Shown here piece by piece: positions 8,893 through 40,836 of a stretch of 58,010 bases of DNA. Each line of letters starts with the position of its first letter. Position 1 is the first letter of the stretch. The translations under genes and the position numbers were made by a program. Origin of the DNA: an uncultured bacterium (GTDB taxonomy: Bacteria; Bacillota_I; Bacilli_A; RF39; UBA660); NCBI GenBank assembly GCA_949296705.1, contig CASFOW010000024.1, positions 1 to 58,010 on the forward strand, written 5' to 3'. The notes below the pieces were generated by a model, which worked only from the letters and a program-made list of their open reading frames with translations, was not told where the DNA came from and ran no database searches.

Positions 8893-8983
8893 GTTTATGA
8901 AAATATGAAAATAGGATAAGCAGTAAACGGATAATCGAGTGAGTTTAAAAATATAGGCGTTATGGAATAAAATAAGTGAAGGA

Positions 8984-9032
8984 TGGTGCTTGTTCTAATT
9001 TGGATAGAACGGGTGCCATTTTTGTTGCTTTT
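8984..9032 (+). terminator. Terminator-like hairpin in the leader of the machine operon
   Basis: TGGTGCTTGTTCTA (8984-8997) and TAGAACGGGTGCCA (9005-9018) form an unbroken 14-bp stem counting G-U pairs, with a 7-base loop and a T-rich run behind it. It lies between the promoter and the first gene. It is either an attenuator or the end of a small RNA of about 130 bases. Confidence 0.6.
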
Positions 9033-9122: not shown

Positions 9123-12100
9123 ATGAAAAAGGTAATTTTTATTATCGTTTCTGTTTTAGCTATGCTTGGGTTATTGTTTTGGTATGGTTTTCGGGTTAAT
9201 GAATCTAAGTATAAAGAGTTTTCTGGTGATGGTTATATTTTGGCTCGGGTAGAAAGAAATGGTACAGAAAGTAGTACAAAGTATTATTTTTCCTCAGGAA
9301 CAAAGTATAGAGAAAATTATGAAGAACATTATCTATTTCAAAATACGGATCAGGAAGAAGTAGAAGTGGTAAAAACCTCTTTTGTTCATTATCTAGATAA
9401 TGGAATTTCTACGTTAAGTAAGACCGCTATTTTAGATTTAGATAATTTAAATACTGAGGTGATTCGTTATTATAGTTTTTACGAAGGTAGTAAATTAGCT
9501 TATCAAGATAATGGTCGTTATCAAATTAGAAACTTAGATAAAGTATTATCTTTTAGTAATTTTTTAATGAAAATTTCAGAGAATAAGTATATGATTGTTG
9601 CGCCTAAAATTCATTTAGTTATCGACGGAGAAACCAAGATAATTGAAAATAGTTATTTGGAATTTGCCTTTTTAGATGGCAATATTATTCGGTTAGAGAA
9701 TCAAGAAGCTAGTTTTCAAAGTATCGCATCGGATATTTATATCGAACTAGAAAATGGCGTAAAAATAAATTTAGCGGATAAGAATATCTTCTTAGGGTCT
9801 GAGAAAAAACTAAATTTAACTCAAATAACGATTGATTCTGATGATAATATTGAAATTACTCCTGATGAGGAAGAGAATGAAGAGTTAGAACCAACACCTA
9901 CGGAGAGTAGTAATCCATTAGAAGGTTTGACGGATGGTTCTTTAAATGGTAATCAAGGGGATAATGAAGAAGAAGTAGATGAAGAGGAAAAAGTAAGTGA
10001 TCCACTATTTTCGGTTATCGATATGACGGTATCTTCTAATAAGGTGGATGCGACGATCGAGTATGAAGATCAAGATGGTTTACTTACTGGTGATTTATTG
10101 GTTAAGATTATTCAAACCTCTAATAATAAGGTAGTTTATCAGACAAGAGAGGGTAGTGGATTAAGTAATTTCCATATTGAAGTAGAAAATTTAATGCCAA
10201 ATACTAATTATATTTTAGTAGTTAATTCTGATTATACTAAGAATGGTAAACAATATAACCGTGATTTTATTCAAAAAACTTTTGTGACTGAGTCCCTTGG
10301 CATTGAGCTTGTTAAGAATTATTTTACAACAGATGTACTTTCTTTCTACTTAGAAGTCGATGACTCTTCAAGAGTAAAGAGTGCGGAAGTTATGTTAATG
10401 AATGCTAATGGCGAAGAAATTGAAACCCAAGAAGTTTCGTTAGAAGCTTTAGAAAATAAACGTCAAGAAGTTACTTTTGATGATTTGACTTCAAATACTG
10501 AGTATCAAGTACGCGTTTATAATTTCTTATATGACAATTCTATTATCAGTGATAATTTTACGATTGAAAATACCTATAAAACTCTAAAACAAAAACCATT
10601 CTTAGGTAAAACGAGTTTTACCGTAAATAAGAAGGATTCTCTCTTTTCATTAAAAGTGAATAATATTAGTGATAGCGATAATGGAATTGTATCTTATCGA
10701 TATGAAATCTATGATGCAAGAAGTTTGGCCGATAATCCTGCTAGTGTAGAAGTGATTGAAAAGAATAATAAATCATCAGTTGATTTACAAGTAGATAATG
10801 TGACGATTTTACGTGGTGTTCCTTATGTATTTAAGATGATCGCAACATTTAATGATAACGAAAAAGAATATGAATATGAAACAGAATTTAGTAATGTTAT
10901 GCAACTGGATGGTGTCGAGTTTCCTTCTATTCGTTTTGAAAGTAAGGAAGTCACTTTTGAGCGAATTGTTGGAAATATTATCATTACGGATAATGGAAAT
11001 ACAATTAGTTTAGATGATAATAGTGTAATGACGATTACCTATACTGATTCGGTTGGTAATTCTAATTCTTATACGACGAGTGGTAGTTATAATATTCCAT
11101 TCTCTGTCAATAATTTACGGGCTAATGAAAGTTATACGATTTCTGTTTATGCGACTGTCAATTTACAAGATGGTAATGAAGTAATTGACAACTGTTATAT
11201 TGGTAGTGTCGTTATTCAGACGGAGCCAACTAAGCCTTTCCTATTAGATTACTCTGTTGATAGTAGTGATATTGATCGTGCCTTTTCTGTTACTTCACGA
11301 TTAGGTGCAGAAGACGGAGTCGATAATACCCTAGAAGCAAATACGCTTGAAGGATTGATGTTTAATCTTTATTCTGGTACTTCTACGAATGGTAATTTAG
11401 TAAAATCTGTTCGTAAAGTCGATCATAATCTCAATGATTACGAAAGTGAGTTAAAGGAAGAGTATTATGATCAGTCTTTCTTATTAGATCCTAGTTTCTT
11501 TGGTTTAAAGAATCAGGATATGACTTCTGAATATTATACGATTGAAGTTACTAATGCTTATGACTATACTACTTATCAAAATGATATTCCAATTAAGAAC
11601 AATGTGATTACCGTTAAGACTAATGGTTATATTCCAGATTTACCAACGGATGTCAATAATGCGATTGAAGTTAATGTTATTCGTAATAATAGTGATCCTG
11701 CACGTTATCGTGAGGAATTAGATCCAGAAACGATTATTGGTTATCGTATTCGAGCTGGTTATGATAATTCTAAAAAATACGCAAAACGAATCGAATATCA
11801 AATAATCGATAGTGTAACAGGGAAAGTAATCGATACGATTAGTTACGACATCCCATCAGATGGTAGTATTGGGTATGTTGAATTCTATTTAGAAGATGGT
11901 ACACCATATGATGAACAAGATGATACATTACGTCGTGGAAATCGTTATTACTTTACTTATAAAGCCTATCTAGATCTAAACTTTGACGGTACGACAGAAA
12001 CAGTTTATCCGAAGGCAGAAACCGGAGTAGTATTGCGTTCTAGTGAAGTAGCGCCTGAAAAACAATCAGCATACTTTTATACATATCCTTCAACTTATAA

Positions 12101-14330: not shown

Positions 14331-14345
14331 AAAGGAGAAGATCAG

Positions 14346-15752
14346 ATGCGTAAATTAGGAATCAAAAACATTCGTTTATTTGTATTACTTGCCATATTGG
14401 TTTTTGTCATTTTATTGATCTTCTTCTTTGGCATTCGCTATGTCTTAAATCTAGATACTTCTACTTATACTTTACAAAAGGGTAGTTTCTTATATGATGA
14501 TGATTTTCATTATATTGAAGTTGAAGATGATGCCATCTTAAAGAAAAGTTTCGATAATGCCTTTTATCTAACGATGTTAACGGGTGGAATTAGTCAGAAG
14601 TATAAGATTGGTTCAAGTACCGTAGTTTATCATGATGGTGATTATAAGATGTATTTATATGGTACTTTCTATCAAGTTTCTACCACCGGTGAAGTTACCA
14701 AATTAACAAAAATGACGGAAGTAGTGAAAGCGAATGTGCCACAGTTTTATAAGATTTCTGATCGTAAATATTTATGGATCGATAGTAGTTTTACTTCTAC
14801 TAATGGCTTAAATACCGATGAATATTTGATTATCGAGTTAGATAAGCAAGGAAATGCGACCCTCGCTAATCATGAAATGTATGAAAAGACGATTAACCCG
14901 ATGGTGATTAAGGGTAGTTTATATGACTTTGATGTTGTTCATGAGAAATTGATTTTAACTGATCGGGAAATTGATTTAAAGAATATTATTGGTAGTAGTA
15001 ATGAATACCAAGATCCAGTTGTCGAGGAAGAAGAGGAAGATACAACACCTGATAATAGTTATTATGATGATTATTTTGAACAACTTGTGAATAGCTTTAA
15101 CAATTTAACGGGAAATATTAATGATTATAACGAGCAACAACAAGAAGACGATGAAGAAGAGATTCATTTAGATTTAACACGGTGGGTTTCTTTGAAATCG
15201 GTTACAGCTAGTGTAAATAGTTTAACGGTTGATTATCAAGTTTTTGATCCAAATAATGAATATAATGCGATTTTTCTCATCTTCCAAAATGAAGGAATGG
15301 ATGAAAAGAAGATTTACTTAAATAAGGAAAATACTTCTTATACTATTCGCGATCTTGTTCCTAATACAGAATATACGATAACGTTTGGTTATCAGTTAGC
15401 GAAGTCGGTTGATGAGGCAGAAACAGAAGTAACTGATGATGTGGTGAAAATTAAAACGAGTAAACCGAATTATCAACTTGCTTTTACGAAAATTACTTCT
15501 AGTAAATTATATTATTCACTAAAAGTTGATCCTCTTTATCAATTAGAAAGTGGTACGATTCGCCTATATTCAGATAATCAAGTATTAGCTGAACAGATAA
15601 TTGATGCTTCTAAGATCACAAATGGTGTTTATACAGGAAGTTTTGATAATCAAAATCTTGGTTATTTCATAGAAATTAGAGTGGAGGATTTTGTATATAA
15701 TGGACAACTTGTCAACAATTTTCCTATCACTAGTAAATATATCAATCAATAA
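14346..15752 (+). CDS. Membrane-anchored surface protein with acidic linker and FN3-like domain
   Basis: This 468-residue protein is the small-scale version of its upstream neighbour. It has an N-terminal transmembrane helix (about 10-34), a beta-rich domain (about 36-220) closing with LILTDREIDLKNIIG, an acidic low-complexity linker (about 225-275), then one clear FN3-like domain with 'IRDLVPNTEYTITF' and a short beta C-terminus. GAAAGGAGAAG precedes the ATG, 15 bases after the giant gene. It is followed directly by the c-like gene, in the place where subunit a would stand in an atp operon. It is probably an extracellular partner of the ATPase core. I do not recognise a named family. Confidence 0.7.
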   Translation: MRKLGIKNIRLFVLLAILVFVILLIFFFGIRYVLNLDTSTYTLQKGSFLYDDDFHYIEVEDDAILKKSFDNAFYLTMLTGGISQKYKIGSSTVVYHDGDYKMYLYGTFYQVSTTGEVTKLTKMTEVVKANVPQFYKISDRKYLWIDSSFTSTNGLNTDEYLIIELDKQGNATLANHEMYEKTINPMVIKGSLYDFDVVHEKLILTDREIDLKNIIGSSNEYQDPVVEEEEEDTTPDNSYYDDYFEQLVNSFNNLTGNINDYNEQQQEDDEEEIHLDLTRWVSLKSVTASVNSLTVDYQVFDPNNEYNAIFLIFQNEGMDEKKIYLNKENTSYTIRDLVPNTEYTITFGYQLAKSVDEAETEVTDDVVKIKTSKPNYQLAFTKITSSKLYYSLKVDPLYQLESGTIRLYSDNQVLAEQIIDASKITNGVYTGSFDNQNLGYFIEIRVEDFVYNGQLVNNFPITSKYINQ

Positions 15753-16010
<258 letters not shown>

Positions 16011-16026
16011 GAATAGGGTAAAAAAT

Positions 16027-16761
16027 ATGATAGAAGTAATTGCTGGCGTTATTATCGTATTATTCGTATTAACATTAGTTATGTTTCTTCTATTAAAAAA
16101 AATTGTTCAAGAGATTAACCATCAATCCAAAGAGTATTTTGCTTTAAAGCTTCAAGATTATGATGACTTAGTCGAAGAACGAGAAAAAAGATTAATTGAA
16201 TTAGAGAAGAATAAGGAAAGAATAAGGTTGGAAGAAGAAGGGGATAATGATAAAGAGGCTTCTGTTGTTTGTGTTTCTGATAAATTACCAGAATATCAAG
16301 TAGAAGGGTTACTTCAGAAAATGAAAATAATTGATGAAGAGTTTGACTTAGATAGTGATAGGATTGTTAAATTATTTTTACAAGAAAATCAACTTAGAGA
16401 AAATGAAGAGATTCATCAAGAACTCTTAGCCCTTAAAAAGTATCTTGGTCAATACGAAGTTTATCGGAAAATTTCTGCAGATAAGCAGTTATTATTCGAT
16501 ATCATAAAAAAATTATCTCCGGCTTCTTTGAAAAGGATAAATCAATATCCTTTAGCTAGTCGTTTTACGATCAATGATTTTTTGGAATACTTGGAAGTAG
16601 AAATTAGAAAAAGTGATCCTGTTATTTATATTGAAGTAGGGGATAAAGATTTGAATTATGATCAGTGGGATACGAGAATTAAGACTGTATATAACGATAA
16701 GATATATAAAGGTATTCGTATTCGCTATCAAGATAAGTTATATGATTATAGTCTTACGTAA
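16027..16761 (+). CDS. b-delta fusion-like stator protein of the F1-like ATPase
   Basis: This 244-residue protein has one N-terminal membrane helix (about 4-27) and then a charged helix likely to form a coiled coil (about 28-75), as in subunit b. It continues into a soluble helical region and ends with DPVIYIEVGDKDLNYDQWDTR, then YKGIRIRYQDKLYDYSL. That ending resembles the C-terminal strand-turn of subunit delta/OSCP, whose usual form is 'GG-R---GDK--D-S'. Gene order supports this, since delta normally sits between b and alpha. b-delta fusions exist in actinobacterial ATP synthases. Here it would tie the alpha-beta head to the membrane. The delta reading is moderately supported. Confidence 0.65.
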   Translation: MIEVIAGVIIVLFVLTLVMFLLLKKIVQEINHQSKEYFALKLQDYDDLVEEREKRLIELEKNKERIRLEEEGDNDKEASVVCVSDKLPEYQVEGLLQKMKIIDEEFDLDSDRIVKLFLQENQLRENEEIHQELLALKKYLGQYEVYRKISADKQLLFDIIKKLSPASLKRINQYPLASRFTINDFLEYLEVEIRKSDPVIYIEVGDKDLNYDQWDTRIKTVYNDKIYKGIRIRYQDKLYDYSLT

Positions 16762-16772
16762 GGAGTGGTACT

Positions 16773-18102
16773 ATGGCGGATAGGCCGGATGAATTAACGA
16801 AGATTGTTAACGATCAGATGCAAAAAATCGAAAGTAATAATAATCGTTTTGGGGTTGGAAAAATTACAAATATGAAAGAGTTTATTGTCGAAGTGGTTGG
16901 CTTAGACGATGTCTTTTTCTACGAGAAGATCAATTTAGCGAATAAAGCGTTAGGATATGTGACAAAGATTGAAACCAATCGGGTTTTTGTCGCTATTTTA
17001 CATAAGGATGAGGAATTAACGATTGGAGATTTGGCTTATCAAACGAACGAAGAATACATGGGTGAGTTTTCGGAAGATGCCTTAGGGAGAATGATTAATA
17101 TTTTTGGTATTGATCAGTTGATTGGTAAGAAATTTCAAAATCAAGAGAAGCTAAGAATCGAAGAAGAACCTATTCCGATTATGGATCGTACAGCGGTTAA
17201 AAGACCTCTTCAAACGGGAATTACTGGTATTGATTTGATTTATCCGATTGGTAGAGGACAAAGACAGTTGATTATCGGAGATAAGAAAACGGGGAAAAGT
17301 CAGATTTGTTTAGATACGATTGTTAATCAGAGAGGAAAAAATGTCATTTGTATCTATTGTGCGATTGGTAAGACCAAAAAAGAAGTCAAAGAAATCTATT
17401 ATGATTTATTGAAGAAAAACGCCATGAGTTATACGATTATCATTACTGCGTTTAATGATGAAATGCCACCAGTCTTAGTATTAACTCCTTATTATGCTTT
17501 ATCGATTGCGGAAAAGTATATGAAAAAAGGGTATGATGTCTTAGTTGTTTTAGATGATTTAAAACGTCATGCTGATGCTTATCGTGAGATTAGTTTAATT
17601 TCTGGAAAAAGTCCCGGAAGAGATGCTTATCCATCAGATATCTTTTATTTACATTCTAGGTTATTAGAAAAAGGTTGTCAGTATAAAAATGGCGCTAGTA
17701 TTACTATTTTACCAGTTGTTGAAACTAAGGGTGGTGATATTACCGATTATATTTCTACCAATATTATTTCTATTACAGATGGGCAAATTGTGTTATCTTC
17801 TAAAAATTTTCAAAAAGGCGAGAAACCAGCTATCGATTATGGTCTTTCCGTTTCCCGTTTAGGTGGATCAGTACAGACCCAGGATATGAAGAAATTAGGT
17901 GCGTCTGTTAGAAGAAAACTACTTAGTTATCTAGAAACTAGAGAGATTTACGAATTAGCGAATATCGATGAAATGAGTAAAGAACTACAGGAGAAAATCT
18001 TTGAAGGAAAGAAAATACTTGATCAGTTGATTCAACCAAAATATTCTCCTTGTAGTGAAAGTGAAATTAGTAAAAAGTTTGCTTTTTTAGAGGATAAAAA
18101 GA

Positions 18103-18110
<8 letters not shown>
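16773..18110 (+). CDS. F1-like ATPase alpha subunit
   Basis: This 445-residue alpha chain is shorter than the usual 500 or so. The P-loop is GDKKTGKS (169-176), matching the alpha form GDRQTGKT. The YDD-type Walker B is VVLDD (D261-D262), followed by KRHADAYREISL and [21 protein letters not shown], which is diagnostic for alpha rather than beta or flagellar/type III ATPases. The arginine finger is kept in SVSRLGG (R362). The N-terminal beta barrel is present but the extreme N-terminus that binds delta is reduced. AAGGAG precedes the ATG. The stop overlaps gamma by 8 bases. It would build the hexameric head with beta. Confidence 0.9.
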
Positions 18111-20475
<2,365 letters not shown>

Positions 20476-20492
<17 letters not shown>

Positions 20493-21024
20493 AATAGCGA
20501 ATCTCTTTCCTTTTATCGTTTCTTTTTCACTCGCGATATTTCTAGTACTGGTAATTACCTATTTTCTATTTAAAAAATTTAATCCCAAAGGAAAAAAACT
20601 AAAGATATATGGTATTTTCTTAGGACTTTCTAATTTAAATACAATTTCTATTTCTTTACTAGGAGTACGTTATATATTCTTTATTTATTGTTTATTTCAA
20701 AATCATTATGTTTCTATTTTTGAAGATGTTCATTTCTATTTTTTACTTATTCCAGGTATTTTATATAATATTTTAAATAGACGATATTTTAATATATTAT
20801 TAGATAGTTTAAATTCTATTATCTTATATTTTATTTTATTTTCTAAGATGATCTTTCATGATTATATTTTTCAAGTACAAAGTGTTTGGTATGTGGTACT
20901 AATTTATGTTTTATTACTGATTTTTACTTTTATCTATGGTACTTATTTTATGGTTAAGGATGTCGATTATGTGTTAAAGAAAAATAAATATATCCAAAGA
21001 AAATTAAAAAAAGGAGAAAAATAA
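20476..21024 (+). CDS. Multi-pass membrane protein of the F1-like operon
   Basis: This 182-residue protein has about five hydrophobic helices (near 10-32, 43-70, 82-95, 108-125 and 140-160) and a Lys-rich cytoplasmic tail ending in KKGEK. No subunit a signature (the RLFGN-type helix with its essential Arg) is visible. One Arg in a hydrophobic stretch, LLGVRYIFF, is the only membrane Arg that catches the eye. Its start lies inside epsilon, so it is expressed with the ATPase. It could be an extremely diverged subunit a, an AtpI-like assembly factor, or a new membrane part linking the ring to the outer proteins. Unassigned. Confidence 0.6.
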
Positions 21025-21025
21025 T

Positions 21026-21763
21026 ATGAAAAAAGGAATAAAAAAATTAAGATTATTTTTTAAGAAGCATTTTATTAAGATTTTAATTGGTTTAGCGGTA
21101 TTATTAATCGGCATTGGGGTTATCTTTATGTTACGGCAAGTAGAGAAGGAACTTGAAACTTATACGGTAGAAGATGCTTCTATGTATCAGTATTTTGGTA
21201 CTCAGAAGTTTATGTATGATACTTCGTTAACGATTAGTAATGAAAATGAAATAACGGAGTTAAAGGTGAATGATGAAGTAGTAGAACTTGATTCTGATCC
21301 ATTTTATTATCAGAAAGAAAAGAAGGTAATATTTCCAAAAGATATGTCAGTAGTTTTTCCTAAATCGAATGGGCAACAGCGTAAGATTCCTTATTTTACG
21401 GTTTTGGATGGTACTGGTATTGATAATTATTTAACGAATAGAGGACTTAATTATTTAATTGAGAATGCTTTTCTTTATGATGGAAATGATTTATATTTTT
21501 TTATCGAAGAAGTAACTATTCAATTACCAGATGGTAGAACAATACCACTTTCTCCTTATTCTTATCTAGTTCTTAATTATAATGGAGAGCTTATGGCTTA
21601 TGATTATAAGAATGATAGTGCCTTTCTTGAGGAGAATATTACTGGTGATGTGTTTGTTTTAGGTGATGGATATCAGTTAAATGTCAGTATTGATGGTATT
21701 ATCTATGGAGAAAATACTAGGCTGTTGATGAAGAATTTAAACTATTTAGATAATCTTTCATAA
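21026..21763 (+). CDS. Membrane-anchored protein with the cluster's shared N-terminal domain
   Basis: This 245-residue protein has a Lys/Arg-rich tip, one transmembrane helix (about 17-36, ILIGLAVLLIGIGVIFML) and an external beta-rich domain of about 200 residues. That domain, which ends with LGDGYQLNVSIDGIIYGEN, is laid out like the N-terminal domains of the 1735-, 468- and 2923-residue proteins, but here there is no acidic linker or FN3 region after it. It is therefore the minimal member of the set. It starts one base after the previous gene's stop with AAAGGAG upstream. A role as a short external scaffold is inference. Confidence 0.65.
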   Translation: MKKGIKKLRLFFKKHFIKILIGLAVLLIGIGVIFMLRQVEKELETYTVEDASMYQYFGTQKFMYDTSLTISNENEITELKVNDEVVELDSDPFYYQKEKKVIFPKDMSVVFPKSNGQQRKIPYFTVLDGTGIDNYLTNRGLNYLIENAFLYDGNDLYFFIEEVTIQLPDGRTIPLSPYSYLVLNYNGELMAYDYKNDSAFLEENITGDVFVLGDGYQLNVSIDGIIYGENTRLLMKNLNYLDNLS

Positions 21764-21776
21764 TGGATGTGATAAA

Positions 21777-24700
21777 GTGAAGAAGATAATTGGAGTTTTG
21801 GTAATTGGTTTGGTGATAGCTTTTTATATTACCTTTTTAAGATTTAAAGAAGTAGGTTTTATTGAGATGGATGGTTATTTGTTAACGAATAACCAGATTA
21901 CGACTAACTTATATCAAGAAAATAACGAGGATAGAGAAAAAATTGAGATTGCCCAAGTAAAAGAAATGGATAAAGTTTACCAACAAGGCAACAAGCTTTA
22001 TGTAGGGGAGAATAAAAAGAAGGAGATTTCGTTTAGTTATCCACTAATCTCAAAAGATGGGAGTAGGATTCTAAATCTTTCTTCAACGAGTAAATTGATT
22101 CAATTAGATTATGAACAAGTAGAGAACTTTCCGAATACGATTATCGCATCAGGAAACTTATATCATACTTCTGACTATTTAAAGGTAGATGAAGAGAAAT
22201 ATAGTTTTGTTCTTTTAGAAGAAAATCTACTCATGAATACACTGCCAGTAAAAGTGATTACTGAAACAGAAGAGAAAACTATCCCCATTTATAGTATTAT
22301 CTATTTTCAAGAAGAAGAAATTAGATATTATGAATTTAAAGAGGAATCGTGGAACTACCAAGAAATTACAGGAATAGATGGGGAAACGATTATTGAGATA
22401 GAAAACAATCAAACGAGTTATGAAGACTTTTTAGATTTAATCCAAATAAAGGAAAAACAAGAAATAATGGAAGAAGAGGAAGAAATCGAAGAAGAGGATG
22501 AAGAACAAGAAGAAGTAACTCCTCCAAGTGAGGAAGAAGAAGTAGAAGAAGGTTTTGTGAGACCAGATGTAAGTCTAACGAAGCTTAATACCAATGTTTA
22601 TTCACTACAAGCTCATCTAGAAATTACCGATAAAAATAATCGCATCACGAAAAGTCCAACGATAGAAATCTATCAAAATGGAAGTTTATTTTTAAGAAAG
22701 ACGTATTATGGAAGTGGTGATATTGAAATCGTGGGTTTACTTCCTGATAGTGAATTTACAATAGTAGGAACATATGACTATTTAAATGAAGAAGATAAAC
22801 AAATTAGAAGAACCTTTATAGAAGAGACGATTCATACTAAAGATATGTCTACTTTGGATTCTATTCAGTTAACCTATCAAAACGGAGAAGTTTATGCGAA
22901 AAAGATTATCCTAGAAGAATTTGGCTTTTTAAGCGAGGAAGAAAGTGAAGCTTTAAAAGGAATCAAGAAGATTACGGTAAAAGTAGGAGATAAAGAATTC
23001 CAAGTATCTAGTAGTTCTATTACTAAGATGAAACGCTTAGAAAGAGTTACTTATGAAACCGGAGAAAGTTTAGAAAGTAATCAAACTTATCAAGGAACGA
23101 TTACGATTTATGACTTAGCTGGAAATGAGATGAAGGTAGAAAATAATACCTTTAATACAAGGACATCTAAACAAGCACCTACAGTTAATGTGAAAGTAGA
23201 AGAAACAGATATCACTAGATTTACTTTAGGAGTAGAAGTAGAGAATAAAGATGAGATTGTATTAAATAGATTTAGATATGAGATTTATGATGAAAATAGT
23301 AAACTAGTTCAAGAAGGAGAAATCAAAGATAAGAAAATTAACGGTAATAACTTAAATACAAATATTATCTATACCGTAAAAATTTATGCCGACTATGATT
23401 TAGAAGATGGAAGAGGAACAAGGGAAAATGAACTTTTAAAAGAAACTAAAGTGAGTACTAATCCACTAAGTTCTTTAGGTTTTATTCGAGTGACTTTTGA
23501 AGAAGCGAGTGTTCGTGAAGATTCTGCTAATTACAGGTTATATTTAAATATTGATAATACCGATAAGAGATTAGTAGAGTTATTAGATCAAGTAACGATA
23601 ATTACGAAAAAACAAGAAACAGGAGAAGAAGTAAGTAGAATTACTTTAACTACAAATGAAGTTAATAAGTTAAAAACTGGAACTTTTCAAGATATAATTA
23701 TCGAGAACTTAGAATCAAAAACTAGTTATGAAGTAGAAGTAACTTCCCAGATAAAACAAGGGGATATTCGTTATGATATTACGACTCTTTCTAATTTAAA
23801 AGAATTCATGACCAAGAAGAAGGAAGCTAAAGTAGAGATTATTAATCAATTTACGATGGAAGATTTTATTGATTTTGATGTTCGAATTGAAGATAGTGAT
23901 CTTTCGATTGAAAGTGATCGCGTGATTTTAGAAGTAAGAAACAAAAATACTGAAGCCTTAGTTTTAATGAGAGATCTTAAAATCAATAGTGATTATGAAA
24001 GAATTACGTTAGAAAAACTAGAGAAAGGAACTCCATATGTATTTCGCTACATCGCAGAAGAATATAATACTGGATATACTAACTCTAGTTATGAAGAAAG
24101 TAAGGTACTATTAGAAAAAGAAATCATCACCGAAGTGGGTATACATGGCGAAGTTATTTTAGATAGTTTACTTCCACAGATTACTAGTAGAAATTTAATT
24201 GATATCGGAAATGAAGATAAGTGGAGAAGGTATGGTAGTAGTGAGGAAGATTCTATAGAAATTGATGAGGATGATAATTTGATTTATATGTCTTATAAAG
24301 CGACTGTTGTAGGAAATGCCTGGATATATTCTTATTATTTACCAGAATACAGAAATCAAGAAGTAACAATTTCATTTCAAGCGAAATATCAAGATAATTC
24401 TAAATTGGGAATAGTTAAGCTAGTAAATGATTATTCTTTTGAATTGGCCAATTATATTTTTGATATCCCTATTGAAACTGGGGGTAACTGGGTAACTTTT
24501 AGTAAAACAGTTACCTTGAATGATATTGGTTATATCGGTTTCTATTTACAAAATCAGACAAACGATAATACACCAATTTCGATCGTGATTAAAGATTTTC
24601 AAGTAGAATTAGGGAATAAACAAACTGAATATCAAAAGTATTCAGAGGAAGAGGATTATCAAGCTACTTTTCAAATGGATTTATCTGATACAAAACAAGA

Positions 24701-27700
24701 AATAGTGACTAATGATTTTTATGTTCGACTATATGAAAACAATCAGAAAATTAGTGATACTAAATATGATTTAGAAAATCATCAAATAGAAGATTTTGAA
24801 ATACTAAAAGAATTATCTAGAAATAAAGAATATAGAATAGAACTAGCCATAAAAATTAGAGATCGTTTCTATACATTAGATACTTTAGAATTTAATTCTA
24901 ACGAAGAAATTCGAAGTATTCATAATTCAGACGATTTTTTTAGAATGCATACTCGAGGTGCTTATTTAGTTGTAGCAGATTTAGATTTGCGAAGAAGTAA
25001 GATTTTTTCTTGGTTAAACAAAGATGATTTTAATATGACTTTAGACTTTCAAGGGCATCGTATGTTACTTAATAACTCTCGTAATGAAACAATTCCTATT
25101 TTTGGTTCTAGTGGAAAACTGTTAAATTTAGATTTGCATTATTATTTGGATGATCCTAATAAAACGCTTTATTCAAATGGTATTTTTGGTGAAAATAAAG
25201 GGCTAATTTCTAATATTAAAATTACTATAGAAACAGCTATTGAAACTCCTGTTGTTCAGTTTTCACCACTTTGTAATGTGAATAACGGAACGATTGAAAA
25301 TTTTATTGTTTATACTAAAGACAATATTCATGTAGGTGATGATTTTGGTTTACTTGCAAGAAGAAGTAATAATGGGGTAATTAGAAATGGTTATTTGTAT
25401 GGAGAAAAAATAATTGCTTCTTATCCTAATATTGATAGCGGTGAAAAAAAAGTTGGAGCTGTAGTAGGAACACTTTATATTGGCTCAGTATTAGAAAATG
25501 TGTATTCACTAATTGATATTGACACTCTTCCTTTAGAACAGTTAAATTCTAACGATCGAGTGGGAAATTTAGTTGGACTTTCATACTATAGTATAGTCAA
25601 AAATATTTACAGTGTAGCAGGAGGAGATAATCGTGATTTAAATACAGATCCTAATTTAGGAATTATTAATACTATGCAGGTATCTAACTCTTTTTATATT
25701 AATAATTCTATTTATAATACATCTTATTCTTTGAAAACTTCTAAAACAGCTTTGTGGAATACTACTTTTCAAGAACGAGTATTAAATAGTAGTACAACTC
25801 AGTTTAATGTTAATGATTTTGTTTCGTATGGTTATTACCCACATCTTATCATGAATGAAAGTATGCCAGTACAAGAATATATTCCGTTACCGGAGTTAAA
25901 AGATGAAGATTTAGTGGATATTATTTCGGTAAATAATGTTGATCAACAAGGAAGTAAAGCTATGGTAACATTAACGGTTCATAATCCAGCTAATGAAAAG
26001 ATCACAGATATTTCGATTAAAGATTTAACGACAACAATTATTAGTCAACAGGATGATAATGGAACAACAACTTTAGTTATTGAAGTAAGTAATCCCATTC
26101 GTTATGTATCACAGTATTTTATTAAATCGATTACTTCTAGAAATAGTTTTAATCTACCATATACTAGAGAATTTGAAGAAGGAGAAAGAGTACTTCAAAT
26201 AGAACTATTTAAAGAAGTGTCTACAGTTGATGAATGGTTAGAAATTAAGAATAGTTTAAGCGAAAATTATATGTTAACTGCTGACTTAGACTTTCAGAAT
26301 AAAATTAATCCTAACTTAGGCAATTTTTCAGGAATATTAGATGGAAATAATCATACAATTTCTAATATTACTTCAACTAGTGGTAATGGAGTGATTATCT
26401 CGCAGTTAGCAGGAACAGTAAGAAATTTATATGTTGAGCATATTTCTAAGACTAATTCAACTAATCATAGTGGTTTGATAGGAATGACAGACCCTAATTT
26501 TGGTTCAACTATAGAAAATGTACATGTATCAGACGTTAAATTAGCTATATCAGAAGCCGTAGGTGGGCTTGTGGGACAACTTTATTTTGCTTCTCAAATT
26601 ATGAATTCGTCAGTTACAGATATAAGTTTATTTGATATTTCAAACTTTAGTACGGAGGTGGTTATAGGTGGGATAGCTGGTTTTATTGATAATGCAATTA
26701 TTGAAAATTGTTATGTACAGGGATTGGATTTAGAAACTGATTTTTCTTTTGTTTCTGGTATGGGTAGTATAGTTGGTCGTGCAGATAATTCTACAATTCA
26801 AAATGTATATGCAACCGGAACAATTAGGGCAAATAATCATAATATTGGTGGAATTATCGGAAACAGTAGTGGAAGTAGCATTAACTTTAAGAATGTTTAC
26901 AGTAATGTTAATATTTATACTACTCAAGGAAATGTCGGTGGAATAGTTGGGCAATTAGTTAATAAAACTTCATCGGTAAACAATACCTTAGTTTTGGGAG
27001 ATATCTATTCAAAGACAAGTAATGAAAATGTCCGAAGAACAGTAGGAAATAGAGATATTAATCAAAATAATTATGTTTGGAGTAATCAACATATGAATGG
27101 GATGATAACTACTGAAACTAATGGAGAAACACTACTTTCTACTGAACAGTTAAATGATCCTTTTACTTATCAAAACTTTGTTCAATTAGGAAGTGCTTTT
27201 AGTTATCAGAATTTAGATATCAATCAATTACCATACCTTTATTATAAAGATACAACAAAATTACTTCCTAATCAGAAAGCAAATTATTTAAATGAACACG
27301 AATTTGAAGTAACAGAGATAGAAGTGTCTTCATCTATTGATAGTGCTTATATTATGATACGACTTCAAAATGAAGATAATTTTCCAATTAATAGTGTTAA
27401 AATTGATGGATTAACAATAACAGGAATTAGAAAAAATGTAACAGAAAATGGAGTAACGACATTAGAAATATCTGTAAAGCCAAGCAAGGCTTATGATAGT
27501 TATGAGTTACAAGAAATTGTTTATCAAAAGAATGGAGTAGAACAGATTTATAATACTTCTGTAAAGATTAATCTACAGTTTTATAAAGATATTGAGTCAT
27601 TTGAAGACTGGCAAAAGATTAGTACAATTGATCCAGAAAACTATCGGTTGATAGCGGATATTGATTTTAGTGATAAGGTTAATGTAAATACAGAAGTTGT

Positions 27701-30548
27701 TTTCAATCGATTAGAAGGTACAGATGGAGGACATACATTAAAGAATTTAGAAATTGTTTCTACTAAAAATAATCTTTCTTTGATTAAACAAATTAATACT
27801 AGTATTTCTAATGTTACTTTTGATAATATTAAGCTATCCACTACTGCTTCTGGTAATTATGCTGGTATTATTCAATATACTTATGGTAGTATGGAAAATC
27901 TAACTTTTCAAAATATCACTGTGGACGCATCAAGAATGACTTATGTTGCTAGTGTATCTTATAGTTATAGTACTACTATTCAGAATATTCAGTTGAGTAA
28001 TATTACAGTAAGTGGGAATAATCAAGTTGCGGGCTTTATTGGTCTAATGACGGAGGCAGATGTAAAAAATATTACTTTAAAGACGGTAAATGTTACAGGC
28101 AAGTCATATTATGTTGGGGGACTAATTGGACTTATTTCTAATAATCTGTCTAGCCAAGCTAAACAATTTTATATTGAAGCAGATGATGTTCATGTTATCT
28201 CGACTGGTGGAACTTATCATGGGATTTTATATGGTTCTGGTGGTTGTTCGAATTCGACCATAAAAAATTCTAGTGTTGCTGGATATAATCAAGTTGGAGG
28301 TATGGCAGGTAGTAATCATGTGTATGAAGTTTCTAAAGTAATTGTTGAAAATTGTAACGTTTCTGGCAATCAATATGTTGGAGGGATTTCTGGAAATAGT
28401 GGTCGGGTGATTGATAGTAGTACGGTATCTAATTCTACGATTTCCGGAAATAGTTCAACTTCTCTTTATGTTGGCGGCTTATCTGGTTATTATTATAACG
28501 AAATGCGTAATTCTGGCATATATCACAGTACAATTACTAATCTGGGGGATTATACTGGTGGCTTAGCTGGACGGGTTAATGTTGCTGAGATACTTAGAAA
28601 TGCTGTTCAAGATTGTGTTATATCTGGTAATAATTATGTAGGTGGTGTGATTGGCGGTAATACTGAAACTTCTCATCCACGTACAATTCGTCATAATACT
28701 ATACAAGCAACGATAAATGCCTCAGGTAGTGGAGCTGGTGGTATAATGGGATATTATCAGAATAATAATATTGACACTACATTAGGACTATATTATACCT
28801 ATTATAATTTGATCGAAAACTCTACCATTTCAGCTTCCTACAATGCAGGAGGATTAATTGGTCAGGTTGATGCAATGAAAACAGCTGATGCAATTTATAA
28901 TAATATTATTGTTGCGAATGTCGAAGCAGTGAATGATCCTTCGACAGCGGGTATTGTAATAGGTAATGGGGATGCTTTAACGACGACAATGCAAAATACT
29001 TTGATTTATGATCAATCTCAATTAAATGGTGAAATTGTTTCTGGTTTAGATATTATTGGTATTGAAGAGAAAAATTATGGGACAGCTTTGGATTTAGCTA
29101 CGCAGTCTACTTATACGAATCGGGGTATAACTACTGCCGAATTTGATTTTTCACCACTTTCGTCTGGCTATTACCCAATTTTAATCAATACACCAGGTCA
29201 AGAATTGATTCCTCTTCCAACATCGACTTTCTTATTATCGACAATGTCTCTTGCTTATCAGATGAATGTTATGAAGAGTTTACCTCAGGTAATAGCTTAT
29301 GCATCAGGAATTAATACGATTAATCTAGAATTTAGTGATTTAAATGAATATGTTAGCATTTACATCAATGATACTCCATATTCCCTAACCGATAAGACAA
29401 TGACGTTCTATTATGACTATCAAACAGATTTAAGAGTTGTTGTGACGGATGGATTAAATGCCAAAGAATATGTTTTTACTCCTGATGATTTAAGAAAAAC
29501 TATTCTTACTATTGGTAATAACTATTATTATTTAGATAATGGCAAGTTAATTAGTAATCAAGGTAAGGAATATACAGATAGTTTTATTCATCTTTATGAT
29601 CATTATGCTTTAACGAATAATGGCAAGATTCTTGATTTAGAATCCGGAGTTTATCAAGAAAATAATATTACTAATCTTTCTCAAAAACAGAATACTACAC
29701 CTTTATATACTTTCACATATCAGAATGAATTAATAGATACTTATTATAGTTACAGTTTAATTAACCAAGAAAAAGAAGTAGAGAATCAAGTATTTATTAA
29801 GAACGGTAAAGTAACGATGTTAAAAGCTGACTCAATGTATACTGGAGATAGTTTAATTATCGATTCTTATAATAATAAGGATTACTTATTCGTCTTAGGC
29901 TCAGATGGAAAGTTATATTCCTTAAAGAGTGAGATTAAGTATCCAAATGATTTTAAGAACAAAGAAATCATTGAGATGAGTAGTAACATTCTAGGAAATA
30001 GTAGTTTTGTGTTAGTTCGATATCAAGATGGAAGTATTTATGGCTTTGATTATCGAACAGGAGTAAGAATTGTATCTACTGTAGATAATGATATTTCTAT
30101 TGTCGATTATTTTGTAGACAAAGTTAGAAGTACTTATCAAGAAACCTTTGATAGTAGTTATTCGGATGCTTATCAGGAAGCACAAAAATTAGTTACCAAA
30201 TTAGAAGAGAAATCATTAGAACAAGTAGTAGGTACTAAAGAACAAGAGTCTTATGAATATGTAGAAGTTTATAATCCAGTTAAGAATAGCTATGAACTCT
30301 ATGAAGCTAATAGTTATTTAAATGGAACTAGTAAAGTAGAAGCTATGACAATTGATTATAATCAATCCATTACTGATAACATCTATCAAGACTATGCCCT
30401 ATATTCTTACTATCAAACTTCGTTACCAGGCAAAGTGGTAGGTGCTAAAGTAAATGGTTTATATATCTTTATTGGTATTTGTACGTTGATTGGTAGTTTG
30501 TTCATTTTATTACTTACTTATAAACAAAAAGAAAATACGGCTAAATAG
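21777..30548 (+). CDS. Giant double-anchored surface protein with FN3-like and GLUG beta-helix modules
   Basis: This 2923-residue protein starts at a GTG with GGATGTG upstream. Layout: N-terminal membrane helix (about 5-22); shared beta domain; acidic Glu-rich linker (about 223-262); FN3-like domains (about 262-790); a carbohydrate-binding-like beta sandwich (about 795-955); then three modules that each open with a 'W--I...ENY-L-ADIDF' element like the N-terminal domain of M26 IgA proteases, near 1043, 1480 and 1935. GLUG-type repeats follow these openings (YVGGLIGL, QVGGMAGS, YVGGISGN, YVGGLSGY). A propeller-like C-terminal part and a last membrane helix (about 2893-2913) finish the chain. 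No HExxH protease motif is seen. It should be a loop-like external fibre, anchored at both ends, linked to the ATPase. Confidence 0.75.
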   Translation: MKKIIGVLVIGLVIAFYITFLRFKEVGFIEMDGYLLTNNQITTNLYQENNEDREKIEIAQVKEMDKVYQQGNKLYVGENKKKEISFSYPLISKDGSRILNLSSTSKLIQLDYEQVENFPNTIIASGNLYHTSDYLKVDEEKYSFVLLEENLLMNTLPVKVITETEEKTIPIYSIIYFQEEEIRYYEFKEESWNYQEITGIDGETIIEIENNQTSYEDFLDLIQIKEKQEIMEEEEEIEEEDEEQEEVTPPSEEEEVEEGFVRPDVSLTKLNTNVYSLQAHLEITDKNNRITKSPTIEIYQNGSLFLRKTYYGSGDIEIVGLLPDSEFTIVGTYDYLNEEDKQIRRTFIEETIHTKDMSTLDSIQLTYQNGEVYAKKIILEEFGFLSEEESEALKGIKKITVKVGDKEFQVSSSSITKMKRLERVTYETGESLESNQTYQGTITIYDLAGNEMKVENNTFNTRTSKQAPTVNVKVEETDITRFTLGVEVENKDEIVLNRFRYEIYDENSKLVQEGEIKDKKINGNNLNTNIIYTVKIYADYDLEDGRGTRENELLKETKVSTNPLSSLGFIRVTFEEASVREDSANYRLYLNIDNTDKRLVELLDQVTIITKKQETGEEVSRITLTTNEVNKLKTGTFQDIIIENLESKTSYEVEVTSQIKQGDIRYDITTLSNLKEFMTKKKEAKVEIINQFTMEDFIDFDVRIEDSDLSIESDRVILEVRNKNTEALVLMRDLKINSDYERITLEKLEKGTPYVFRYIAEEYNTGYTNSSYEESKVLLEKEIITEVGIHGEVILDSLLPQITSRNLIDIGNEDKWRRYGSSEEDSIEIDEDDNLIYMSYKATVVGNAWIYSYYLPEYRNQEVTISFQAKYQDNSKLGIVKLVNDYSFELANYIFDIPIETGGNWVTFSKTVTLNDIGYIGFYLQNQTNDNTPISIVIKDFQVELGNKQTEYQKYSEEEDYQATFQMDLSDTKQEIVTNDFYVRLYENNQKISDTKYDLENHQIEDFEILKELSRNKEYRIELAIKIRDRFYTLDTLEFNSNEEIRSIHNSDDFFRMHTRGAYLVVADLDLRRSKIFSWLNKDDFNMTLDFQGHRMLLNNSRNETIPIFGSSGKLLNLDLHYYLDDPNKTLYSNGIFGENKGLISNIKITIETAIETPVVQFSPLCNVNNGTIENFIVYTKDNIHVGDDFGLLARRSNNGVIRNGYLYGEKIIASYPNIDSGEKKVGAVVGTLYIGSVLENVYSLIDIDTLPLEQLNSNDRVGNLVGLSYYSIVKNIYSVAGGDNRDLNTDPNLGIINTMQVSNSFYINNSIYNTSYSLKTSKTALWNTTFQERVLNSSTTQFNVNDFVSYGYYPHLIMNESMPVQEYIPLPELKDEDLVDIISVNNVDQQGSKAMVTLTVHNPANEKITDISIKDLTTTIISQQDDNGTTTLVIEVSNPIRYVSQYFIKSITSRNSFNLPYTREFEEGERVLQIELFKEVSTVDEWLEIKNSLSENYMLTADLDFQNKINPNLGNFSGILDGNNHTISNITSTSGNGVIISQLAGTVRNLYVEHISKTNSTNHSGLIGMTDPNFGSTIENVHVSDVKLAISEAVGGLVGQLYFASQIMNSSVTDISLFDISNFSTEVVIGGIAGFIDNAIIENCYVQGLDLETDFSFVSGMGSIVGRADNSTIQNVYATGTIRANNHNIGGIIGNSSGSSINFKNVYSNVNIYTTQGNVGGIVGQLVNKTSSVNNTLVLGDIYSKTSNENVRRTVGNRDINQNNYVWSNQHMNGMITTETNGETLLSTEQLNDPFTYQNFVQLGSAFSYQNLDINQLPYLYYKDTTKLLPNQKANYLNEHEFEVTEIEVSSSIDSAYIMIRLQNEDNFPINSVKIDGLTITGIRKNVTENGVTTLEISVKPSKAYDSYELQEIVYQKNGVEQIYNTSVKINLQFYKDIESFEDWQKISTIDPENYRLIADIDFSDKVNVNTEVVFNRLEGTDGGHTLKNLEIVSTKNNLSLIKQINTSISNVTFDNIKLSTTASGNYAGIIQYTYGSMENLTFQNITVDASRMTYVASVSYSYSTTIQNIQLSNITVSGNNQVAGFIGLMTEADVKNITLKTVNVTGKSYYVGGLIGLISNNLSSQAKQFYIEADDVHVISTGGTYHGILYGSGGCSNSTIKNSSVAGYNQVGGMAGSNHVYEVSKVIVENCNVSGNQYVGGISGNSGRVIDSSTVSNSTISGNSSTSLYVGGLSGYYYNEMRNSGIYHSTITNLGDYTGGLAGRVNVAEILRNAVQDCVISGNNYVGGVIGGNTETSHPRTIRHNTIQATINASGSGAGGIMGYYQNNNIDTTLGLYYTYYNLIENSTISASYNAGGLIGQVDAMKTADAIYNNIIVANVEAVNDPSTAGIVIGNGDALTTTMQNTLIYDQSQLNGEIVSGLDIIGIEEKNYGTALDLATQSTYTNRGITTAEFDFSPLSSGYYPILINTPGQELIPLPTSTFLLSTMSLAYQMNVMKSLPQVIAYASGINTINLEFSDLNEYVSIYINDTPYSLTDKTMTFYYDYQTDLRVVVTDGLNAKEYVFTPDDLRKTILTIGNNYYYLDNGKLISNQGKEYTDSFIHLYDHYALTNNGKILDLESGVYQENNITNLSQKQNTTPLYTFTYQNELIDTYYSYSLINQEKEVENQVFIKNGKVTMLKADSMYTGDSLIIDSYNNKDYLFVLGSDGKLYSLKSEIKYPNDFKNKEIIEMSSNILGNSSFVLVRYQDGSIYGFDYRTGVRIVSTVDNDISIVDYFVDKVRSTYQETFDSSYSDAYQEAQKLVTKLEEKSLEQVVGTKEQESYEYVEVYNPVKNSYELYEANSYLNGTSKVEAMTIDYNQSITDNIYQDYALYSYYQTSLPGKVVGAKVNGLYIFIGICTLIGSLFILLLTYKQKENTAK

Positions 30549-30648: not shown

Positions 30649-31653
30649 ATGGATAATCAAATTGATCAAATATTTGATAATATTAAAGAGTTAGTTATTA
30701 GTAGTAGAAATCGGGTTTATTCTGTTGTAAATACCGAAATGCTCAATTTATATTGGCATATTGGGAAAATTATTATGGATATTCAACAAGGGGAGAAAAA
30801 AGCACATTATGGCGATTATGTTTTGGAAAGATTATCAGAAAAGTTAACCGCTGAATTTGGTAAGGGATTTTCTAAAAGAAATTTAGAGAGAATGAGAAAA
30901 TTTTATCTTTACTTCCCGATTGCGACAACAGTGTCGTCGCAATTGAGTTGGTCTCACTATTTAGAGTTATTAAGAATAGAGGAAGAGCCCAAGAGAAAGT
31001 TTTATATGAATGAATGTATTAATTCGAGGTGGAGTGTAAGAGAACTACAAAGACAAAGAGATTCATTGTTATATGAACGTTTGTTATTATCTAGGAATAA
31101 GGAAAAAGTATTAGAATTATCTGAAAAAGGACAGGTGTTAAGAGAAAGTAAAGATTTAGTAAAAGATCCATTTGTATTAGAATTTTTAGATATCAAAGAA
31201 AATACCGAGTATTTAGAAAGTGATTTAGAGAAAAATATATTAGCCCATTTAAAAGAATTTTTATTGGAACTTGGTAAGGGATTTACTTATATTGGCAATC
31301 AAGTAAGGTTAACCTTAGAAGAAGATCATTTTTATCCTGATTTAGTTTTCTATAATCGTTTGTTAAAATGTTTTGTCATTATTGATTTAAAAATGGGTAA
31401 AGTAACTCCTCAGGATATTGGACAAATGCAAATGTATGTTCATTATTATGATAGAGAAATTAAACAGGAGGAGGAGAATTCAACCGTAGGAATATTACTA
31501 TCTACAACTAAAAATGAAACTGTTGTCAAATATACACTTCCAGAAGATAACAAGAATATTTTTTCTACTACTTATCAACTACATTTACCCACTGAACAAG
31601 AATTAATCACTGCCGTCGAGGAAGAAAAGAAAAATTTTGAATTAAGTCAATAA
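30649..31653 (+). CDS. YhcG-type PD-(D/E)XK nuclease family protein (DUF1016)
   Basis: This 334-residue protein matches the YhcG family: an N-terminal winged-helix-like domain with YGDYVLERLSEKLTAEFGKG and LSWSHYLELLRIEEE, then ECINSRWSVRELQRQ and a C-terminal PD-(D/E)XK core with FYPDLVFYN and FVIIDLKMGK (Asp...Asp-x-Lys) and GQMQMYVHYYDRE. The family is widespread in accessory and defence-rich regions and its exact function is unsettled. It is monocistronic with its own promoter and has a paralogue 140 bases downstream. The nuclease residues are intact. Confidence 0.88.
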   Translation: MDNQIDQIFDNIKELVISSRNRVYSVVNTEMLNLYWHIGKIIMDIQQGEKKAHYGDYVLERLSEKLTAEFGKGFSKRNLERMRKFYLYFPIATTVSSQLSWSHYLELLRIEEEPKRKFYMNECINSRWSVRELQRQRDSLLYERLLLSRNKEKVLELSEKGQVLRESKDLVKDPFVLEFLDIKENTEYLESDLEKNILAHLKEFLLELGKGFTYIGNQVRLTLEEDHFYPDLVFYNRLLKCFVIIDLKMGKVTPQDIGQMQMYVHYYDREIKQEEENSTVGILLSTTKNETVVKYTLPEDNKNIFSTTYQLHLPTEQELITAVEEEKKNFELSQ

Positions 31654-31709
31654 TAGGTGGGTTTGTTGGATAGTTAAAAAAATTTACTTTTAAATAGCCT
31701 ATATTGTCG

Positions 31710-31771
31710 AATAGAAAATTTTGTAATATGGAAGATATTTATTGTTTTTCTTACTATAATACTAATAACTA
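31710..31771 (+). repeat. Duplicated promoter region, copy 2
   Basis: This is the second copy of the 62-base segment. The first 18 and last 21 bases match copy 1 and the middle 23 bases have diverged. TATAAT is at 31755-31760. Confidence 0.75.
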
Positions 31772-31790
31772 AATTATAGGAGGAATTTAT

Positions 31791-40324: not shown

Positions 40325-40345
40325 AGAATTATAGCTATCTTTTTG
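40315..40345 (+). terminator. Terminator overlapping the sigF stop codon
   Basis: AGATAGCT (40315-40322) pairs with AGCTATCT (40333-40340), followed by a T-run. It separates sigF from spoVA. Confidence 0.7.
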
Positions 40346-40374
40346 TATAGAATTTTTTTCTTTTTCTCATACTA
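40345..40374 (+). promoter_or_regulatory. Possible forespore (SigG/SigF-type) promoter of spoVA
   Basis: GTATA (40345-40349) and CATACTA (40368-40374) are 18 bases apart. This is the pattern of B. subtilis forespore promoters, and spoVA is SigG-dependent there. The leader would be very short, which weakens the call. Confidence 0.4.
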
Positions 40375-40392
40375 TTAATGGGTGATATATGG

Positions 40393-40833: not shown

Positions 40834-40836
40834 AAG

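Follow-up and report, generated by a model that had tools for sequence, protein, structure and literature searches.

The window analysed here is the whole of contig C24 (CASFOW010000024.1), 58,010 nucleotides of DNA from an uncultured bacterium of the RF39 lineage (UBA660) whose genome assembly comprises 1.58 Mb in 83 contigs and is estimated to be 95% complete. Between positions 9123 and 30548, eleven open reading frames (ORFs), all on the forward strand, place the genes of an F1-type ATPase among genes for giant membrane-anchored surface proteins, and this operon and its relatives in other genomes are the subject of this study. The original prediction, made from the DNA sequence, had described eleven co-directional genes with no more than 15 bp between neighbours. 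Their common direction was confirmed, but the spacing in the ORF list (in order 15, 3, 16 and 11 bp, four overlaps, then 1 and 13 bp) includes one gap of 16 bp. The genes are as follows.

9123..14330, + strand: g1, a 1735-residue surface protein with an N-terminal membrane anchor, the shared N-terminal domain and FN3-like repeats (Pfam FN3, 5e-9)
14346..15752, + strand: g2, a 468-residue surface protein with an anchor, the shared domain and an FN3-like part (fn3, 0.0046, under the cut-off)
15765..16010, + strand: c-like proteolipid without the ion-binding acid (Pfam ATP-synt_C, 1.3e-7)
16027..16761, + strand: fused b/delta peripheral stalk with an N-terminal helix, a coiled coil and a delta-like C-terminal hairpin (profile comparison)
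16773..18110, + strand: alpha, with P-loop and arginine finger (Pfam ATP-synt_ab, 9.4e-74)
18103..18891, + strand: gamma (Pfam ATP-synt, 1.8e-22)
18866..20230, + strand: beta, 454 residues, with P-loop, catalytic Glu and a DELSEED-like loop (Pfam ATP-synt_ab, 2.8e-69)
20223..20492, + strand: epsilon-like protein, 89 residues (profile comparison to canonical epsilon)
20476..21024, + strand: tm182, 182 residues, a probable degenerate subunit a (fold match of the predicted structure)
21026..21763, + strand: g10, a 245-residue free-standing copy of the membrane-anchored beta-rich domain (predicted structure and profiles)
21777..30548, + strand: g11, a 2923-residue surface protein with GLUG (2.2e-7) and FN3-like (sub-threshold) repeats and a hydrophobic helix at each terminus

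The c ORF was called from a GTG at 15756, but the c proteins of relatives begin with M-E, so the start is probably the ATG at 15765.

Relatives were collected by scanning 84,980 species genomes with a c alignment and two c patterns, one of them containing GRNPE. The best 80 loci were retained; 33 of these (L054-L086) are of the window's type, and the other 47 served as the canonical comparison where the genes were present. Since the loci were picked by c patterns and only the best 80 were kept, c is present in 33/33 by construction and carriers number at least 33. The recurrence of the motor block in at least 33 loci of other species indicates that the operon is not a chance arrangement. Both b/delta and alpha are found in all 33 loci, gamma, beta and epsilon wherever the contig extends that far (32 loci), and tm182 is a gene of its own in 30, being fused in L078 and probably in L058. 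The position of gamma varies, and in some loci it is placed after tm182.

The catalytic residues that the original prediction had recognised in alpha and beta are retained across these relatives. In alignments of 34 alpha and 32 beta rows, the P-loop Lys is kept in every row of both subunits, the catalytic Glu in 32/32 beta rows and the arginine finger in 33/34 alpha rows, the remaining row being a gap. Beta scores over the NCBIfam atpD cut-off (473 against 463 bits), and alpha falls under every cut-off among the 25 NCBIfam models shown (best 416 of 554 bits). We also observed alpha proteins with long, mostly acidic, repetitive C-terminal tails (L030:4888-9138, L062:11011-13500 and L026:2-1945), with a total length of 829 residues in L062 and 1416 in L030; the window alpha has no such tail.

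The c-like protein combines an altered ion site with a conserved rotor surface. We compared 36 sequences (the window, the 33 scan loci, G058 and G007) with 50 canonical rows, one 323-residue row having been removed from the original 51. Helix 2 lacks any charged residue in 36/36 aligned sequences, and the position of E. coli Asp61 is occupied by Ala (18), Ser (10), Thr (5), Met (2) or Val (1), whereas 50/50 canonical rows have an acid 13-26 residues past the loop. The RNP loop, which meets gamma and epsilon, is retained in all 36, as is a C-terminal [FY]NP motif that occurs in 0/50 canonical rows. Eight loci that were found via alpha alone, not via c, agree in these features (8/8). Judged from the alignments, the catalytic site is intact, the ion site is lost and the rotor loop is kept. 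The original prediction had called the ion-handling part lost or changed; with no charge in c helix 2, "changed" is apt and "lost" is not, as c and probably a persist without ion chemistry.

In addition, the ratio of nonsynonymous to synonymous substitution (dN/dS, NG86) indicates purifying selection on every gene measured. For c, this ratio lies between 0.008 and 0.075 in six locus pairs, several of which have dS near saturation, and between the window and G214 its dN is zero. In four of the six pairs, c has the smallest ratio of any gene (L054/L055, L076/L079, L081/L083 and L064/L065), while alpha and beta fall below c in L066/L074, and alpha, beta and epsilon do so in L080/L086. These values indicate that the non-pumping ring is conserved about as strictly as the catalytic subunits. 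Where measurable in the six pairs, the surface genes have ratios of 0.13-0.39, and of 0.03-0.08 in the compared parts between the window and G214.

We examined how this operon relates to the housekeeping ATP synthase. The original prediction held that a genome with no other atp operon and with a subunit a gene elsewhere would make this the real ATP synthase; the window's own genome (95% complete) showed no other atp operon but also no subunit a gene, so that this check did not refute the surface-machine view. Its two PF00006 matches both lie in this operon, with no other F1 alpha or beta and no PF00119 subunit a found. Among 385 genomes of the order, alpha matches at 55% identity or more, the definition of a carrier in this sample, occur in 27, five have matches of 39-42%, and 353 have none at E 1e-3. 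A search for PF00119 covered 28 carriers of the family (these 27 and G095), the five relatives with a canonical-type alpha and ten carriers whose record titles point to other groups. Subunit a turned up in 0/28 family carriers versus 5/5 relatives with a canonical-type alpha, one of which, G067, has a canonical-looking operon. It was present in 10/10 carriers of other groups, each time on a contig other than that of the motor locus, and further full-scoring alpha/beta pairs are present in the same ten genomes. The Clostridia-titled carriers G755-G762 show one full-scoring alpha/beta pair only, as in the window's family, and this pair is likewise the only one in the single-contig relative G160. 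The alpha and PF00119 counts thus indicate that most of the family has no F-type ATPase and that some members have only this one; the ATP synthase has been lost across most of the window's lineage, and among the carriers of other groups some have both F-type ATPases and some only this one. Two carriers outside the family, G752 and G754, have two PF00119 places each and maybe a further F-type ATPase.

The surface proteins follow the motor closely. Within the 33 loci, g1 is adjacent in 23 and g2 in 25, and the motor block occurs in seven other genera of the family, with g1/g2 adjacent in G095, G061, G058 and G052 and not adjacent in G007, G018 and G081. The expected synteny with the giant proteins is therefore seen in most relatives but not in all, and this second check from the original prediction did not refute the functional link either. 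Although g2 has no detectable relation to F1, it was found in 28/385 order genomes, comprising 27/27 motor carriers and 1/358 others, the g2 and alpha samples being taken as the same genomes on the basis of their handles. It lies on a contig other than that of alpha in 9/27 carriers, G114, in which g2 is split over two contigs, being left uncounted; and of the eight loci without adjacent g1/g2, seven come from genomes with g2 elsewhere, at least three of which seem to be members of the order sample. As such, g2 is the best genomic marker of the system, and motor and surface proteins are inherited together, with tm182 and g10 fused at least once. The only one of the 385 genomes with g2 and without an alpha match is G180 (G180:C2:21336-22946, L251), which represents either a missing contig or a surface half without a motor.

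The system is rare: g2 was detected in 3/392 genomes of a phylum sample, one of them weakly, and in 1/112 genomes of the genus of Bifidobacterium colobi. In a class sample of 395 genomes, alpha reached 55% identity only in the window's family (five genomes), the next best match being 45%. By record title, the loci come from Bacilli, Clostridia, Lachnospiraceae, Erysipelotrichaceae, Clostridiales Family XIII, Peptococcaceae and Coriobacteriales (metagenome-assembled genomes), and a number of carriers are recorded as coming from the gut of animals (roe deer rectum, sheep colon, chicken). The locus is also present in an isolate, B. colobi LC6, whose genome has a canonical subunit a and alpha/beta pair besides, and gene removal there need therefore not touch energy metabolism. 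GC content spans 24%-60% across loci; in the window it is even inside versus outside the operon, and in B. colobi it is 60% at the locus and 58% around the canonical genes. Since GC matches the surroundings, the locus is not a fresh arrival in either host.

Profile comparison revealed a feature that the original prediction had not noted, a membrane-anchored N-terminal domain common to at least three of the surface proteins. It links g1 with g10 (E 4.9e-8 over 211 columns) and g2 with g10 (1.9e-5), the match of g11 is weaker (4e-4 to 9e-3), and controls with canonical a, b and delta gave 0.06-0.8. The lowest value, 1.7e-11 between g1 and g2, covers just 91 columns further in. Each surface protein also carries its own N-terminal hydrophobic signal anchor. 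The g10 alignment comprises 21 sequences after exclusion of the long copies in L058, L059 and L078. The model of g10 (pLDDT 92.5) combines about 24 short strands with a long helix at the N-terminus, and g10 contains little beyond the shared domain. Its fold had no useful match in the PDB (best Foldseek E 0.019 with TM 0.14; hits above Z 4 in VIA were single-helix overlaps), and a sequence search of the PDB with g10 gave no match.

Two Lachnospiraceae-titled loci seemingly without tm182, L078 and L058, have a g10 ORF of about 400 residues. In L078, the profile of tm182 finds residues 1-167 (E 1.3e-10, or 9e-10 in hhalign against 0.05 and more for the controls) and the g10 domain follows in frame; L058 has the same arrangement with weaker values (hhalign 2.8e-5; HMM domain E 0.057). 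The fused ORF had no BLASTP match to the one tm182 with which it was compared, and the fusion is thus a result of profile comparison, clear in L078 and weaker in L058. Where a membrane subunit of the motor is naturally fused to a surface domain, there is direct evidence that the two work together, and the fusion places g10 on the stator side. Directly after the fused ORF, L058 encodes a second g10-like protein of 476 residues (L058:16223-17653), the anchor domain being duplicated. Among the loci without adjacent g1/g2, L080 (9247-19239), L086 (8849-16422) and L063 (15249-17003) have an extra ORF downstream, together with between one and four small proteins whose signal segment resembles that of TasA/camelysin, e.g. 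VVAIIGATFAYFSA. Pfam matches to camelysin were obtained in L063 and stayed under the threshold; the small proteins are possibly fibre subunits, or merely common in those genomes.

The remaining motor parts are more diverged. Neither b/delta nor epsilon has a Pfam or other family match over the cut-off. Among five partners, the b/delta profile matches the C-terminus of canonical delta best (E 6.5e-4, next 0.04) and the epsilon profile matches canonical epsilon best over 85 columns (E 3.8e-3, next 0.21); as pairwise E-values from small profiles, these make both assignments suggestive. For tm182, an AlphaFold2 model from 31 sequences (pLDDT 86.7) has two long C-terminal helices. The top two of 350,542 PDB chains in Foldseek came from one ATP synthase Fo entry, with E above 1. 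After realignment with VIA, ATP synthases made up 15 of 50 entries in the list, at Z 7.8-9.8; because helical bundles can reach such values by chance, the fold match supports the assignment and does not prove it. VIA gives entry titles and no subunit names, and we read the 15 matches as putative subunit a by chain label and residue range. Their alignments span tm182 from residues 1-6 to 169-177, and the other 35 rows begin at residues 43-60. A sequence search of the PDB with tm182 returned nothing relevant. In helix 104-134, no column of residues 107-134 has a conserved K or R (at least 12 of 31 sequences), suggesting that the stator arginine of a is not kept, provided tm182 is a. Taken as modelled, tm182 is probably a degenerate subunit a that serves as a scaffold without the stator arginine.

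Given that no PF00119 subunit a was found in the window's genome or the family carriers, the mostly conserved synteny and the near-perfect co-occurrence of g2, the best reading of the operon is an ATP-powered surface machine, and we consider it likely that an F1Fo ATP synthase has here been turned into an ion-independent, one-way rotary motor for that machine. The results support a motor that works with the four membrane-anchored surface proteins g1, g2, g10 and g11, and a stator made of b/delta and an a-like scaffold bearing g10. In such a motor, ATP hydrolysis would rotate gamma and epsilon together with the membrane-embedded ring, without ion flow, and the ring would pass torque outward to the surface proteins via its conserved outer end. 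The C-terminal end of canonical c faces outside, and the NP that is invariant there in the c-like proteins would be the obvious candidate for contact with the surface proteins. The g10 stator could then be the counterpart against which the giant FN3 and GLUG proteins are turned, pulled or cycled, and these giants might move the cell, bind or let go of a ligand, or exert shear on what surrounds them. The original prediction of an ATP-driven surface machine is thus supported in part, by the co-occurrence of g2 and the absence of subunit a, while its mechanical output is what we infer.

Several points weigh against the proposal of a rotary surface motor. Because the genome scan used c patterns, which include the RNP loop and yielded 25/33 loci, the c counts are partly built in. 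Carriers within one family are not independent samples, some of the splits of alpha and g2 between contigs may be assembly breaks, and in G764, the genome of one of the loci, no g2 was seen. No profile matched the b part of b/delta, and a search of the PDB with the b/delta profile found no b or delta chain. The subunit a call is drawn from the predicted fold, and comparison of the tm182 profile with canonical subunits gave it no sequence support. Finally, a few loci have interrupted motor ORFs (alpha: L070, L082; beta: L067, L070), which are either assembly errors or broken copies.

By analogy with what has been proposed for the MIB-MIP ATPase, ATP could instead power the conformational reset or release of a surface receptor, with the ring as a coupling plate. 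In the closest system with a tested role, a pair of surface proteins that cleaves antibodies is described as dependent on the ATPase (PMC12994834), and the gut origin of several carriers would fit such a role. We nevertheless regard it as unlikely, since Pfam detects no protease domain among the window's surface proteins, and the ring, the stalk and probably subunit a are kept, unlike in mycoplasmas, which suits rotation.

F1 homologues serve export in type III systems, and the motor might by analogy export or assemble the giant proteins with which it co-occurs, as flagellar-export F1-related ATPases do. This seems very improbable: the surface proteins have their own N-terminal signal anchors, alpha and beta score far under the FliI/SctN cut-offs, and a c ring and stalk are unnecessary for export. 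That the operon is the real ATP synthase of its lineage, with an unusual ion path, is hardly tenable and nearly refuted already. It is the only F1 in its own genome and in G160, and G755-G762 likewise have one pair, but c helix 2 has no acid in any of the 36 sequences, PF00119 is absent from all 28 family carriers, the ten carriers of other groups have a separate subunit a, and the lineage evidently lives without F1, since 353 of the 385 order genomes have no alpha match. We give equally little credence to the idea that motor and surface genes are neighbours by shared inheritance only, with no joint function; the locus is indeed inherited as a block, the species are not independent and 8/33 loci have no adjacent g1/g2, yet g2 is kept where it lies on another contig (9/27 carriers), and lies elsewhere in 7/8 genomes without adjacent g1/g2, while L078 and probably L058 encode tm182 and g10 in one ORF.

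Other candidates were rejected outright. A pseudogene or decaying operon is contradicted by the purifying selection on every gene measured, despite the split ORFs in a few loci, and a defence system by PADLOC, which matched 0/9 proteins (gamma and epsilon not included). A plasmid or phage element was rejected as g2 has 0 matches in 72,556 plasmid records, and the records in which alpha has matches (579 of plasmids, 48 of phages) all lie below 60% identity, the 12 listed being at 39-40%. Four phage-named records (OR850002, OR845006, OR847114 and PQ520020) contain a housekeeping-like atpA with about 40% identity to the window alpha, which is probably bacterial DNA deposited as phage.

Around the operon, the 561-bp stretch on its 5' side contains a terminator-like hairpin of 19 pairs at 8979-9023, which could act as an attenuator; the leader folds only slightly more stably than shuffled sequences (z -1.65) and matched no Rfam family of known regulatory RNAs. 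Directly after the operon lie two tandem YhcG/DUF1016 PDDEXK nuclease genes (30649-32858), and genes for a sigma factor and SpoVAD at 39662-41832 fit a spore-forming ancestry.

Phylogenetic analysis of alpha (82 rows) and beta (73 rows) placed this type in one clade with SH-aLRT support of 100, apart from housekeeping F1 and mycoplasma type 3, in trees from a quick search with long stem branches, housekeeping beta at 87 and no N-ATPase rows. Alpha rows of less than 380 residues (L070, L082), beta rows of less than 400 (L067, L070) and loci L210-L213 were omitted. Reciprocal rooting of alpha and beta grouped the type with mycoplasma types 2 and 3 at supports of only 71 (alpha) and 51 (beta). 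The rooted tree joins it with type 3 beta at 97, on long branches, and the alternative of F1X with housekeeping alpha was not rejected (p 0.81).

Compared with the canonical F1Fo ATP synthase, the operon has the same alpha, beta, gamma, epsilon-like, c-like and b/delta parts, probably a, and a near-housekeeping gene order. It differs in having no acid in c and no conserved stator arginine, in placing a at the end and fusing b with delta, in including surface proteins in the operon, and in forming its own clade in both trees. N-ATPases are likewise F-type ATPases additional to a housekeeping one, and are described as a second, horizontally spread type whose c keeps the sodium-binding residues and which has no delta (PMC4154653). 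The window proteins miss the N-ATPase cut-offs TIGR03324 and TIGR03305, alpha scoring 367 of 750.5 and beta 414 of 752 bits. We found no paper on the present system among open-licence PMC papers, and propose with moderate confidence that it is an undescribed class of rotary ATPase, in which a full F1Fo, complete with rotor ring, stator stalk and subunit a scaffold, has lost ion transport and acts through the membrane on giant surface proteins, with g10 borne on the stator, fused to the a-like subunit in some species, as the domain against which the ring could push.

The nearest known counterparts are the F1-like ATPases of mycoplasmas. Type 2 (the G1-ATPase of Mycoplasma mobile) similarly links an F1-like motor to giant surface proteins, and is the proposed driver of gliding in M. 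mobile, where a b-delta fusion is the suggested origin of GliD (PMC11864180). It differs in its N-terminal beta extension and twin motor, the window beta having 454 residues, and no b, delta or other Fo homologues are recognised in the account of its cluster in PMC3369863. The cut-offs for MMOB1660 and MMOB1670 were missed (405 of 600 and 392 of 850 bits). Type 3, an F1-like X0 ATPase, is similarly an extra F1 with ATPase residues that is tied to surface proteins (PMC12994834, PMC3369863); it is reported to be required for the MIB-MIP antibody system (PMC12994834), and its cluster is described as seven genes with no b, delta or Fo homologue reported (PMC3369863). Its cut-offs NF045936 and NF045934 were also missed (308 of 520 and 415 of 570 bits). 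Type 3 proteins 1, 2 and 5 have no detectable match to c, b/delta, tm182 or g10 in comparisons of small profiles, and the idea of protein 5 as a c hairpin in fused form was rejected because the alignment behind its best profile E of 0.009 did not convince. Since the cut-offs are missed, the X0 proteins have no detected counterpart, and the ring and stalk are kept, we do not file the operon as a member of a mycoplasma type, although as far as its sequence tells the principle appears to be the same.

Taken together, F1 motors redirected to surface work have, as far as we found, hitherto come from mycoplasmas only, and there the membrane part is unrecognisable. Here it is recognisable as the same rotor ring with its ion site gone, and torque transfer across the membrane without ions therefore becomes testable by structure and mutation. 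If our reading is true, bacteria of two phyla would have an ATP-powered rotary or cycling device on their outside, possibly an intermediate from which the gliding and antibody-release motors of mycoplasmas arose.

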